Shown one piece after another: positions 6,528 through 44,126 of a DNA stretch of 64,000 nt. Source of the DNA: Peptococcaceae bacterium. GTDB taxonomy: Bacteria > Bacillota > Desulfitobacteriia > Desulfitobacteriales > Syntrophobotulaceae. How positions within the stretch are numbered: the stretch's first letter is position 1; each line of letters starts with the position of its first letter. The DNA lies in the NCBI GenBank assembly GCA_009782825.1, contig WRII01000002.1, forward strand, positions 1 to 64,000, given 5' to 3'. The notes below the pieces were generated by a model. The model was not told where the DNA came from. It made no database searches and worked only from the letters and a program-made list of their open reading frames with translations. Both the position numbers and the translations under genes were made by a program.

Positions 6528-6556
6528 TTCCCAGCCAATAGCTCATCTGCTATAAT
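6528..6556 (+). promoter_or_regulatory. Promoter of the metalloprotease-peptide pair
   Basis: TTCCCA (6528-6533), 17-base spacer, TATAAT (6551-6556). The -10 is perfect and the -35 matches four of six positions. Confidence 0.6.
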
Positions 6557-6637: not shown

Positions 6638-7792
6638 ATGGTTGATGAGCGGTTTGAATTGCTATCGCTTGTGTTTCGGCTTGCGGAAAGCCCGGGATAT
6701 TGCGATAAGTTCACAGATTATCAACTTGAACTCTCTTCTGTATTTGATTCCTTCAAGAACCATGCTGCTGTCGTTTATGCCTCTAAGCTTCTGTTGGGGT
6801 ATGATGCGGTTTTCAAGTTTTCGGTTCATATTGTTAAAGACGGTGACACCTTCATTTTCATGCCTGATATTGATTCTTTGTTGGAGGATGGACGATGGAC
6901 ACAGGAGTCTGCCGCGGAATTTCTGCCGCTGTTGAATGACTTTTACAAGCACGCAGAATTCTGCGGGTTTTTCGAAGCCCATGTGCCCTTTTATAATAGC
7001 GAAACCCAGAGTTTTATAGAAAATACCTATTCCGCCTTGGATTTGGAATGGTTTCGGCCCTATGCCAATCCGGAGAATTTGCGCTGTATTATTACCCCTT
7101 CCTCAAGCAGACAAAACAACTCTGCAACTGTGAATCACAAAATTGTCTATGGCGCGGTATGTCCGAATGTAAGCACCAGAACTCTTGTTCACGAATATTG
7201 CCATAGTTTTGCGAATCCTATGGCTTTATCATGGTACGCCGATAATGCTGAGTTTAGGCAGTGGTGCGATGATTCTGTAAACACTGAAGCGTGGCCGATG
7301 TATTCAACTGGCGATATTATGGCGAGAGAATATGTGACTCGCGGGTATGAAGTCTTGTATATGGTTGAACATAGTAAGATTCCGTTGCCGTTTCTGCTGG
7401 CGTGGCACCAGGGTTTAGGCTTTTCTTATATAGAAGATGTATACGCGATGATCACACCCCATGTGAAGATGGAAGCCGATGCTGACAAAATCAGGGCGAT
7501 TCTGGGCGTCTCATATGAAATGGGGCCGGAACAGAAAACGACTCTTGAGGATAGAAATATAACATGGCGCTGCTTGGCTCTATCAGAGCCGCTGCCCTAC
7601 GACTTTCATCCTTCCGTGACGTATTGCGGCAATATGATTCCCAGCCAGACAGGAGATGTGATGTATGTGGATGACGCATACTTGCGGTTTGATATTGGGG
7701 AAGCTAAACTTCAAGAGAATAAGGGAATGCGGCTGTATTACCGGATATCTGTGAAGAATAAGGCTGGGAGGTGCTTTCATGGAAGAATTTGA
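6638..7792 (+). CDS. Putative zinc metalloprotease with HExxH motif (DUF4932-like)
   Basis: 384 residues, no signal peptide or membrane helix, so probably cytosolic. The zinc-binding motif is in LVHEYCHSFANPM (about residues 186-198), the HE[FY]xHSFxNP form seen in DUF4932-type proteins. A likely third ligand is a Glu further on (AREYVTRGYE region). N-terminal residues about 1-150 are family-specific. AAGGAGG at 6623-6628 sets ATG 6638. The last 14 bases overlap the start of a double-glycine peptide gene, so the two are translationally coupled and probably act together; processing of that peptide is a plausible role but is inference. Base composition is slightly AT-richer than the housekeeping genes. 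Confidence 0.65.
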   Translation: MVDERFELLSLVFRLAESPGYCDKFTDYQLELSSVFDSFKNHAAVVYASKLLLGYDAVFKFSVHIVKDGDTFIFMPDIDSLLEDGRWTQESAAEFLPLLNDFYKHAEFCGFFEAHVPFYNSETQSFIENTYSALDLEWFRPYANPENLRCIITPSSSRQNNSATVNHKIVYGAVCPNVSTRTLVHEYCHSFANPMALSWYADNAEFRQWCDDSVNTEAWPMYSTGDIMAREYVTRGYEVLYMVEHSKIPLPFLLAWHQGLGFSYIEDVYAMITPHVKMEADADKIRAILGVSYEMGPEQKTTLEDRNITWRCLALSEPLPYDFHPSVTYCGNMIPSQTGDVMYVDDAYLRFDIGEAKLQENKGMRLYYRISVKNKAGRCFHGRI

Positions 7793-7979
7793 TGATGTGG
7801 CGGCGAAGAAAATTGACGCCTTGTTGAGGGTGATCTCTGAAGCGGATAAATTCGGAAAAACCCCTGATATATTATTGGATGAGGAACTTGACGCGGTTAC
7901 CGGGGGAGTTGCGATCCCCGATTATCAGAGGTTTTTGCAGTATGTCCGTGAGCGCAGAGAGAAAGAACAAGATGAATAA
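7779..7979 (+). CDS. Small peptide with a double-glycine leader, possible RiPP or bacteriocin-like precursor
   Basis: 66 residues. The first 43 are an acidic, helix-prone leader ending LLDEELDAVTGG, which matches the L..EEL..V.GG consensus before the cleavage site of double-glycine leaders. The remaining 23 residues (VAIPDYQRFLQYVRERREKE then QDE) would be the mature part: short, strongly charged and lacking Cys, so not a typical lanthipeptide core. A GGGAGG signal precedes ATG 7779, and the gene overlaps the metalloprotease by 14 bases. No transporter or modifying enzyme is next to it. It could instead be a regulatory or substrate peptide for the upstream protease. Confidence 0.6.
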   Translation: MEEFDDVAAKKIDALLRVISEADKFGKTPDILLDEELDAVTGGVAIPDYQRFLQYVRERREKEQDE

Positions 7980-14028: not shown

Positions 14029-16262
14029 CGCGACACGAGGTCGCTTAACATATAGTTTACAAAGATAAAACCCGCAATTCCGTTTGCGGTAGCCTACCTT
14101 CACCTGCGTTGCCGGTAACAGCAAGGTGGGAAAGCTGAAGGGACAATGTAGCCCTGATAGTAATATCGCAGAGAAAATCGCGAGAGGATCTCAATGGCTG
14201 TTAGCAACAAACGGCTAGGGAGCTAGGCTCAGGTGGCATGGCTGGTAAATTCGAATCTCCGATAAATGTCGTAAAAATCAACAGGCCAAAACTGCTGACA
14301 GGCCTGAACCAAAACGGTACGCAGCTGGATAACTCACTGATCCCTTGAGTTACACGGACATAAAAGCTGCCGGCAGAAAGGAGAAGCCTAAACTACCTAT
14401 GGCTGTATAGCCAGATGTGTTAAGCGGAACGTAGTAACCCCATATATCTCTCATGCCTGAATACCTGAAGAGCCGGGAGGTATGAGTAAGCCAACCGTGA
14501 GGAAGGCCGAACGATATGTGGGACTGGTAGAAATCCAGAAGCGAAGGCCGTCCTGTAATGGGACGGATAGGGGTTCAAAATTTGCCCCACGCGAAAGCGG
14601 GCAGACGGGAGAGTAGGTGCTCGATCACGAGAGAACCTGTCAAACCTTCGAAGGGAGAAAAGCAGATGAACGGTGCTCACGCAACGTGTGCGTCCCCCTA
14701 TCAGAGTAAGGCTTGGGACCAGATCAACTGGGACCAGTGCCGAAAAATGATCAGAAAGCTACAGGCGCGTATCGTGAAGGCTATTCAGGGAGGCAGATGG
14801 GGAAAGGTGAAAGCCTTGCAGCATCTGTTAACCCACTCGTGGTCAGCTAAGGCTCTGGCAGTAAAACGAGTGACAGAGAACCGTGGCAAAAACACACCTG
14901 GGGTCGACAAAACCATATGGCCGACCAAGGAAACCAGATTCAAGGCGATATCCGCACTCAAACAGCGCGGGTATCAGCCAAAACCACTCAGACGGGTCTA
15001 CATCCCAAAGGCAGGAAACAGCTATAAAATGCGCCCATTAAGCGTACCAACTATGTTCGATCGCGCGATGCAAACCTTATACAAGCTTGCATTGGAACCT
15101 ATCGCCGAAACAACCGGAGATCCGAATTCATACGGATTTAGACCACACAGATCCACACATGACGCCATCTGCCAGTGCCATACATGCCTGTCACGGGACA
15201 AAAGCGCAAAGTGGATATTAGAAGGCGACATCAAAAGTGCATTCGACAACGTCAGTCATGATTGGATCATGGAAAACATCCCGATTGACAAGGTCATCTT
15301 AAGAAAGTTTATAAAATGCGGTTATATCGATACGGGAAAACTCTTTCCAACCGAACAGGGAACCGGCCAAGGGTCAGTCATTAGTCCTGTCATTTTTAAC
15401 ATGGTGCTGGATGGAATGGAGCCAGAAATCAAACGATTAGCCAAGAAGATCAAAGTGAGGGATCACAAGCATCCAAAGATCAACGTAATACGTTATGCGG
15501 ATGATTTTGTGGTTACCGGCGACAACAGGGAGATCCTAGAACAAGAGATCAAACCACTCGTTGAAGAATTTCTTAGCAAACGCGGCCTGCACCTCTCGGA
15601 AGAAAAGACAATAATCACCCACATCGACGAAGGATTCGACTTCCTGGGATGGAATGTGCGAAAGTACAAGGGCAAACTGCTCATCAAACCCGCAAAGAAG
15701 AAGACGATCGCTTTTACAAACGAAATACGGGACGCCATCAAAAGCAAGAAAACTGCCAAACAGGAAAGCCTAATCAGAATACTGAATCCCAAAATAATAG
15801 GATGGGCGCACCACCACCGCAGAGTTTGTGCCAAAAAGACGTATTCTTGGGTAGATCATCAAATCTGGAACTGTCTATGGAAATGGGCAAAACGCAGACA
15901 CCCGGACAAGGGTAAGAAATGGATTGCGGGAAAATACTTTCATCGTATTGGTGATAACAACTGGGTATTCAGTGTGAGAAACAACCCAGAAGGCCAATAT
16001 CAGACACTCCATCTGGCTGCATCAACAAAGATTAGACGGCATGTCATGGTAAAATCTGCGTTGAATCCATTTGACAAAAACTGGTGGGGATATCTGGAGA
16101 ACCGCAAGAAACGTAAATACAGGACAGAGGTTGGAGCCGCTGATCTCATTGTATAGCTGGTCTTACACTGCGTAAGGTTTACGAGGGCTTGAACCGTATG
16201 AAGCGAAAGTTTCACGTACGGCTCTGAGAAGGCTGAGGCGGTGGCAACACCGCCTTGGCTAT
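14029..16262 (+). mobile_element. Group II intron (CL-type) inserted in an Rpn-family gene
   Basis: A structured region of about 640 bases (domains I-IV) precedes a reverse transcriptase/maturase gene, followed by domain V (about 16186-16227, GAACCGTATG..GAAA..CACGTACGGCTC) and a domain VI hairpin (GGCGGTG GCAA CACCGCC). The ends are inferred from where the host reading frame breaks and resumes. The 5' end lacks the usual GTGYG: the hairpin GCGACACGAGGTCGC near 14030 is preceded by TTCC. In domain V the AGC triad position reads AAC opposite C instead of G opposite U. The element may be slow, inactive or diverged. Confidence 0.85.
14666..16156 (+). CDS. ltrA: Group II intron-encoded reverse transcriptase/maturase
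   Basis: 496 residues. RT-0 and fingers region with NRGKNTPGVDK, palm motifs NSYGFRPHRSTHDA, GDIKSAFDNVSHDWI, GTGQGSVISPVIFN and the catalytic VIRYADDFVV; then the maturase (domain X) region with GFDFLGWNVRKY and the RRHPDKGKKWIAGKYF segment typical of chloroplast-like (CL) introns. The protein stops at VGAADLIV, before the HNH endonuclease domain common in CL proteins, so retrohoming would rely on endonuclease-independent routes. It promotes splicing and reverse transcription of its intron. ATG 14666 follows GAAGGGAG; a longer frame from 14558 overlaps intron structure. Confidence 0.95.
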   Translation: MNGAHATCASPYQSKAWDQINWDQCRKMIRKLQARIVKAIQGGRWGKVKALQHLLTHSWSAKALAVKRVTENRGKNTPGVDKTIWPTKETRFKAISALKQRGYQPKPLRRVYIPKAGNSYKMRPLSVPTMFDRAMQTLYKLALEPIAETTGDPNSYGFRPHRSTHDAICQCHTCLSRDKSAKWILEGDIKSAFDNVSHDWIMENIPIDKVILRKFIKCGYIDTGKLFPTEQGTGQGSVISPVIFNMVLDGMEPEIKRLAKKIKVRDHKHPKINVIRYADDFVVTGDNREILEQEIKPLVEEFLSKRGLHLSEEKTIITHIDEGFDFLGWNVRKYKGKLLIKPAKKKTIAFTNEIRDAIKSKKTAKQESLIRILNPKIIGWAHHHRRVCAKKTYSWVDHQIWNCLWKWAKRRHPDKGKKWIAGKYFHRIGDNNWVFSVRNNPEGQYQTLHLAASTKIRRHVMVKSALNPFDKNWWGYLENRKKRKYRTEVGAADLIV

Positions 16263-43784: not shown

Positions 43785-43838
43785 TATACTGACCACTGAC
43801 CACTGATCACTGACCCCTTGCGGGCGTAGCCCGCGTTA
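43785..43838 (-). repeat. Dispersed TAACGCGGGC repeat, copy C (inverted)
   Basis: Read on the minus strand: TAACGCGGGCTACGCCCGC, AAGGGGTCAGTGATCAG, two further GTGGTCA units. Its TAA (43838-43836) is the stop codon of the Nif11-like peptide gene. Confidence 0.9.
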
Positions 43839-44126
43839 GTACCTTTTCCATGTCACTTTAGGTACCCATACAGGTACGCTGACTTTGATGCTAAAACTAA
43901 TTCCGCCTGCCACATCGTCAAGATCATCAGCGCCCAACTCTCCTTGCATGGAGGAGGCATTCACTGCGTTTCCGTATTCTTCAAGTTCGTCCACCGTAAA
44001 ATCGTTGCCCAGCGCGTTGATTTGCTTCACAGCTTCATTCAGCTCAAGGCTCAAAAGGGTCTTTGCGCGCGCTTCGTCAGCGCTCAGGATTCTTGTAAGA
44101 ACATCTGCTCTTTCTTGTGATAACAT
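43836..44126 (-). CDS. Nif11-like leader peptide / RiPP precursor
   Basis: 96 residues. The leader has Nif11 features: LSADEARAKTLLSLELNEA, GNDFTVDELEEYG and a double-glycine end ELGADDLDDVAGG. The predicted core after GG is 21 residues, ISFSIKVSVPVWVPKVTWKR plus Y: hydrophobic first, basic at the end, no Cys. It could be a linear or Lys/Trp-modified peptide. The gene is well expressed in principle: GGAGGG lies 7 bases before ATG 44126. No modifying enzyme, peptidase-transporter or immunity gene is adjacent, so it is an orphan. The stop codon is provided by repeat copy C, so the core may have been shortened by insertion of the repeat. Confidence 0.72.
   Translation of the reverse strand: MLSQERADVLTRILSADEARAKTLLSLELNEAVKQINALGNDFTVDELEEYGNAVNASSMQGELGADDLDDVAGGISFSIKVSVPVWVPKVTWKRY

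Follow-up and report, generated by a model that had tools for sequence, protein, structure and literature searches.

The reading we favour, and consider probable though well short of certain, is that the 66-residue double-glycine (GG) peptide encoded at 7779-7979 of the window (the whole 64,000-nucleotide stretch of Peptococcaceae bacterium DNA analysed, on contig C2 of its genome) is an orphan copy of a GG peptide family that is served in trans by NHLM export, that the DUF4932 protein encoded by the gene it overlaps is not its maturase, and that a signal or companion job is the likeliest one for its product. The peptide recurs three more times in the genome without the protease and is therefore most likely part of bacteriocin-type peptide export.

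According to this reading, the peptidase C39 domain of a TIGR03796 transporter encoded on contig C29 would recognise the leader of the peptide and cleave after Gly43, and the same transporter would export the 23-residue tail in trans. The exported tail, probably unmodified and amphipathic-helical, would have one fixed job, most likely as a secreted peptide signal or as a companion of the cell's own bacteriocin-like Nif11-type peptides. The window copy would have ended up behind the DUF4932 gene with its own ribosome-binding site kept, and that gene would lend it a promoter and perhaps translational coupling.

The two overlapping genes and the DUF4932 protein

An earlier note on this DNA had drawn attention to the overlapping pair, and the coordinates and sizes of its open reading frames (ORFs), their 14-base overlap and the HEYCHS motif all match the re-examined sequence (Table 1). 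The protease ORF has a AAGGAGGA ribosome-binding site, and the peptide ORF lies in a different frame. Codon usage is best in the genes' own frames, at 0.17 bits per codon for the protease and 0.41 for the peptide, with lower scores in the alternative frames of both. The shared promoter that had been proposed survives in part: a promoter-like site does lie 5' of the protease gene, but such sites are not more numerous in the region than in shuffled sequence (5 observed against 3.0 +/- 1.9, a difference of about one standard deviation). A promoter common to the two genes is plausible.

Table 1. Positions of the protease-peptide locus features and of a further GG peptide gene in the window
Feature	Position	Strand	Basis
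Promoter-like site TTCCCA-17-TATAAT, putative shared promoter, 5' of protease gene	6528..6556	+	10/12 matches
DUF4932 (PF16286) HExxH metallopeptidase-like protein, 384 aa	6638..7792	+	Pfam match
C-terminal stretch, ~111 residues past DUF4932 match, no known relative	7457..7789	+	Pfam limits and alignment gaps
GGGAGG ribosome-binding site of peptide gene, within protease ORF	7766..7771	+	
Peptide leader, 43 residues, C39 recognition residues L32, E36, L37, V40 and Gly-Gly	7779..7907	+	
Peptide tail, predicted product VAIPDYQRFLQYVRERREKEQDE, 23 residues and stop; core motif PDYQxFLxYVxER	7908..7979	+	
Nif11-like GG peptide, tail ISFSIKVSVPVWVPKVTWKRY	43836..44126	-	E=1.1e-35

The match of the larger gene product to DUF4932 is well above the Pfam cut-off (E=2.7e-25; 89.9 bits against 28.7) and spans residues 2-273 of the protein and positions 5-310 of the 332 in the profile. 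Its protease motif, VHEYCHSF, occupies residues 184-191 (HEYCH codons at 7190-7204), and E231 (7328-7330) is a candidate third ligand of the predicted metal site; H185, E186, H189 and E231 are identical in all 22 aligned DUF4932 sequences. Thus the window protein resembles its DUF4932 relatives in a domain match over the cut-off and in keeping both HExxH and the downstream Glu, but differs from them at both ends. It has no N-terminal hydrophobic segment and no signal peptide was seen in it, whereas most of the Bacillota relatives start with an apparent signal peptide (judged by eye), and where it has its extra C-terminal residues the other sequences shown in the alignment have mostly gaps. Identity to the Bacillota relatives is 21-27% by BLASTP, and a pattern scan of GTDB contigs found no close homologue. 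A sequence search against solved structures gave no credible match, and a structure predicted for the protease alone has a mean pLDDT of 35, too low to be of use. One paper in the literature mentions the domain, and no biochemical description of it was found. Judged by its sequence, the protein appears to be a diverged but intact-looking putative metallopeptidase. DUF4932 is present in 24 of 398 genomes of the phylum and in one of 83 of the class, the window's own, where it is single-copy.

Elsewhere in the window, a group II intron-type reverse transcriptase was recognised by eye at 14558-16156 (+).

A short peptide family with a C39-type leader and a conserved tail

The GG leader, which ends in ELDAVTGG, and the charged, Cys-free tail of 23 residues were as the earlier note had described them. 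The peptide is genuine and beyond chance, because three paralogues at 66-74% identity are encoded in the same genome (C4:82042-82215, C46:957-1145 and C38:25612-25788). One homologue, at 48% identity, is encoded in genome G048, a Peptococcaceae MAG from another family of the same order (contig JAITOV010000130.1, locus L012). The family is thus known from five sequences in two genomes; no further relatives were found in the class genomes, the 398 phylum genomes, the GTDB contigs beyond L012, viral contigs or plasmids, and no Pfam or NCBIfam model, the Nif11 and NHLP leader models included, matches the 66-residue peptide. The paralogues have a GGAGG ribosome-binding site at the same place as that of the window copy, and DNA similarity between the window copy and the others is restricted to this site and the coding sequence. 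The GG, whose conservation the earlier note had made a point of, is present in four of the five copies and is AG in the fifth, the G048 homologue, which retains PDYQxFLxYV. Lack of Cys does not hold for the whole family, as the tail of the C4 paralogue contains YVCER.

The leader carries the residues by which C39 peptidases recognise their substrates. A leader docks in the groove of C39 through L-12, L-7 and V-4, and the ComA consensus has been defined as L-12, E-8 and L-7 (PMC6363468). In the window peptide L32 falls at -12, E36 at -8, L37 at -7 and V40 at -4, followed by G42 and G43; L32, L37, V40 and G43 do not vary among the five copies, and position -8 is E or D. The window's genome has two genes with a C39 peptidase domain (PF03412), on C29 and C35, and the C29 contig carries a sigma-HlyD-ABC-ABC operon, apart from all four short-peptide genes. 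The C39 domain on C29 takes up about the first 150 residues of the protein encoded at L021:9744-11891. Scores for the peptidase-ABC model TIGR03796 are 993.5 bits in this genome and 974.8 at L012 (equivalog cut-off 853.3), and the second ABC model, TIGR03797, gives 792.9 bits in the window's genome against a cut-off of 709.4. TIGR03796 exceeds its cut-off in 12 of the 83 class genomes, both short-peptide genomes among them, for which the chance would be about 0.02 (66/3403) if the two were independent. The earlier note had reported that no modification or transporter genes adjoin the pair. This holds for the neighbourhood but is misleading for the genome as a whole, and the NHLM exporter on the other contig had been missed because only neighbouring genes were considered. 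With a C39 motif in the leader and a C39 exporter in the genome, maturation can be explained without an additional protease, and we infer from these sequence matches that cleavage after the GG and export of the tail would be carried out in trans by the C29 exporter.

At both the C46 and the C38 loci an ECF sigma factor gene is followed by the short peptide gene and then by two longer Nif11-like GG peptides. On C46 these genes are followed by those for a PqqD-B12-radical SAM protein and a radical SAM/SPASM protein, and for a peptide-arginase-like protein that matches NF052474 below the cut-off. The order at L012 is a sigma factor (the gene cut by the contig end), an HlyD-like protein, a C39-ABC protein, a second ABC protein, the short peptide and two longer GG peptides. 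An ECF sigma gene is not adjacent to the window or C4 copies, and inspection recognised no histidine kinase, response regulator or other receptor beside the C2, C4, C46, C38 or L012 copies.

An upstream ECF-type motif, CACATATTGA, was considered as a common signal and rejected: it occurs at C29, C38 and C4 and is absent at C46, at the window locus and at the Nif11-like genes. The C46 genes form an apparent RiPP cluster (L018:141-7922), which also includes a GPP34-like protein. About 11 kb away from the C38 peptide cluster lies a two-module non-ribosomal peptide synthetase (L019:7-7662) whose last domain is reductase-like.

A conserved leader with a variable tail is the usual pattern of RiPP or bacteriocin precursors. 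The window's genome has 16 Nif11-like GG peptides at ten loci, including the one in the window (Table 1), and several of them occur in tandem pairs. We compared leaders and tails for the 15 of these that could be split at the GG and found a mean identity of 65% in the leader and 20% in the tail. The four short peptides of the same genome, by contrast, show hardly any difference between leader (64% identity) and tail (63%), and their pooled pN/pS of 0.19/0.41 indicates that they are under purifying selection. Recent duplication could explain part of the tail identity among these four paralogues, although the G048 homologue, from another family, retains the PDYQxFLxYV motif as well. From the contrast between leader and tail it follows that the product of the short peptide stays constant while the peptides presumably exported alongside it diversify, and a fixed tail favours a signal-like role over a hypervariable bacteriocin core. 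As neither a receptor nor a histidine kinase or response regulator is linked to the peptide, the signalling reading has two supports, the conserved tail and the linkage to ECF sigma genes; from these sequence features we infer a signal function for the tail.

Another way to view the peptide is as a bacteriocin-like or RiPP product that the radical SAM enzymes from the C46 or C8 clusters modify in trans and the NHLM system exports, its tail being a conserved warhead. The usual clients of NHLM exporters are Nif11/NHLP RiPPs (PMC2887384), the C46 paralogue clusters with the three enzyme-like proteins described above, and the tail has a conserved Arg. However, such enzymes are absent among the scanned neighbours of the C38 and L012 copies and none was seen beside C4, the leader matches neither the Nif11 nor the NHLP family models, and the tail is conserved where the RiPP cores of the same genome are hypervariable, so that we consider this reading unlikely, if still worth weighing.

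Equal conservation of leader and tail is also what a folded small protein would show, and the peptide is predicted to form three helices (mean pLDDT 69). It might accordingly stay inside the cell and regulate ECF sigma factors or the exporter in an anti-sigma-like or adaptor fashion, with the GG serving for docking instead of cleavage, and the position of two copies directly downstream of ECF sigma genes would suit such a role. We regard this as improbable, as the C39 recognition pattern and the GG are then hard to account for and the C2 and C4 copies have no ECF sigma gene beside them.

Association between DUF4932 genes and GG peptides

The earlier note had proposed that the protease itself matures the adjacent peptide, and that the two constitute an undescribed system without transporter or modification enzymes. 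The pairing is, however, seen at the window copy alone among the genomes sampled. None of the four relatives of the short peptide lies beside a DUF4932 gene, and the G048 genome has no DUF4932. To look at the pair from the side of the protease, we took the 29 other DUF4932 matches in Bacillota as loci and scanned them twice, once with a loose regular expression across 900 bases, read by eye where the HExxH frame was intact, and once with a stricter rule reaching 4 kb at 17 of the loci. No recognisable acidic GG-leader peptide was found downstream at any of the 29, the single candidate from the stricter scan not being leader-like. Among the first 25 families listed for 79 proteins, mostly flanking Bacillota DUF4932 genes, no RiPP-related family recurs, and none of three plasmid loci with DUF4932 from Bacteroidota, where the domain appears to be common, has annotated peptide genes nearby.

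What speaks for maturation by the protease is that the genes adjoin and overlap, that HExxH and the third Glu are intact, and that the window protein, lacking the apparent signal peptide of most relatives, could therefore meet a cytosolic peptide. In addition, LanB-type clusters in stool metagenomes were reported by one screen to include DUF4932 genes (PMC5410138), and the domain may be linked to modified peptides in other lineages. Set against this are the absence of the pairing elsewhere in the genomes sampled, the lack of a recurring RiPP family among those listed around Bacillota DUF4932 genes, and the C39 determinants in a leader whose genome encodes C39 exporters. Moreover, finding a protease gene next to a GG peptide gene is no evidence of maturation, because NHLM exporters can serve scattered precursors from another contig. 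Thus, the neighbouring protease is probably not the processing enzyme of the peptide, its pairing with the peptide seems accidental and peculiar to the window copy, and a two-gene maturation system is very improbable. Similarly improbable is a decaying duplicate without a function of its own behind an unrelated gene, which would fit the orphan position and the limited DNA similarity to the other copies, but not an intact frame with the best codon score among the stretches tested, the retention of all recognition residues and of PDYQxFLxYVxER, or a pN/pS below 1.

Relation to known export systems and to other GG peptides

Our preferred reading, an orphan peptide exported in trans, has one of its closest known counterparts in the NHLM/NHLP systems with Nif11-type (N11P) precursors (TIGR03794/03796/03797 and TIGR03798; Haft et al. 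2010, PMC2887384). In common with these, the window's genome has a peptidase-ABC and a second ABC protein over the equivalog cut-offs and dispersed paralogous GG peptides, and one relative of the short peptide is encoded inside such an export operon. Unlike their precursors, the short peptide has only 66 residues, no Nif11 or NHLP leader by the family models and a conserved tail, and the genes next to the window copy include none for export or modification. NHLM export of GG peptides is known as such (PMC2887384); what is new is a lineage-restricted, uncatalogued GG peptide family whose tail is conserved. For the class IIb bacteriocins of the lactobin A/cerein 7B family (TIGR03949), two of the genome's Nif11-like peptides score just over the model's cut-off, whereas the short peptide gives no match.

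The pheromones of Gram-positive bacteria, such as ComC/CSP and the bacteriocin-inducing peptides, combine a short GG leader with a charged, helical tail some 20 residues long and have a C39 exporter. At the level of architecture the short peptide is like them in its GG leader, its conserved charged tail and the company of bacteriocin-like GG peptides, but it has no linked histidine kinase or response regulator and, on C46 and C38, has ECF sigma genes nearby instead. A more elaborate scheme, in which a quorum signal exported via NHLM switches on ECF sigma factors instead of a two-component system and so controls the roughly sixteen dispersed bacteriocin-like GG peptides, the window copy being placed under whatever induces the cytosolic DUF4932 protease, is speculative and we would give it little weight. 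The significance of the family lies in a product that stays the same while the peptides presumably exported with it diverge; because of this contrast, a signalling role can be tested directly.

Several other observations concern the GG peptides more broadly. The GG peptide at 43836-44126 stands alone, about 36 kb from the protease-peptide locus, and belongs to the class found beside the short-peptide paralogues. On C15, a putative lipoprotein with an HELGH motif and no Pfam match (L073:992-1849, - strand) is encoded immediately 5' of a Nif11-like GG peptide (L073:367-723, - strand), so that a second HExxH protein, unrelated to the DUF4932 one, adjoins a GG peptide in this genome. On C9, a broken, frame-shifted GG leader remnant is in frame with a DUF4003 protein (L071:371-1517) and adjoins three intact Nif11-like peptides together with TIR, phosphatase-like and kinase-like genes. 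On C8, a radical SAM/SPASM protein (L072:509-1975, - strand) and a lone Nif11-like GG peptide are encoded about 6 kb apart. Finally, short GG peptides with brief charged tails are encoded near NHLM-type export genes in other genomes of the class (L094:4157-4408, L102:13461-13727 and L103:1075-1413); they are not clearly related in sequence to the short-peptide family and may be its functional analogues.
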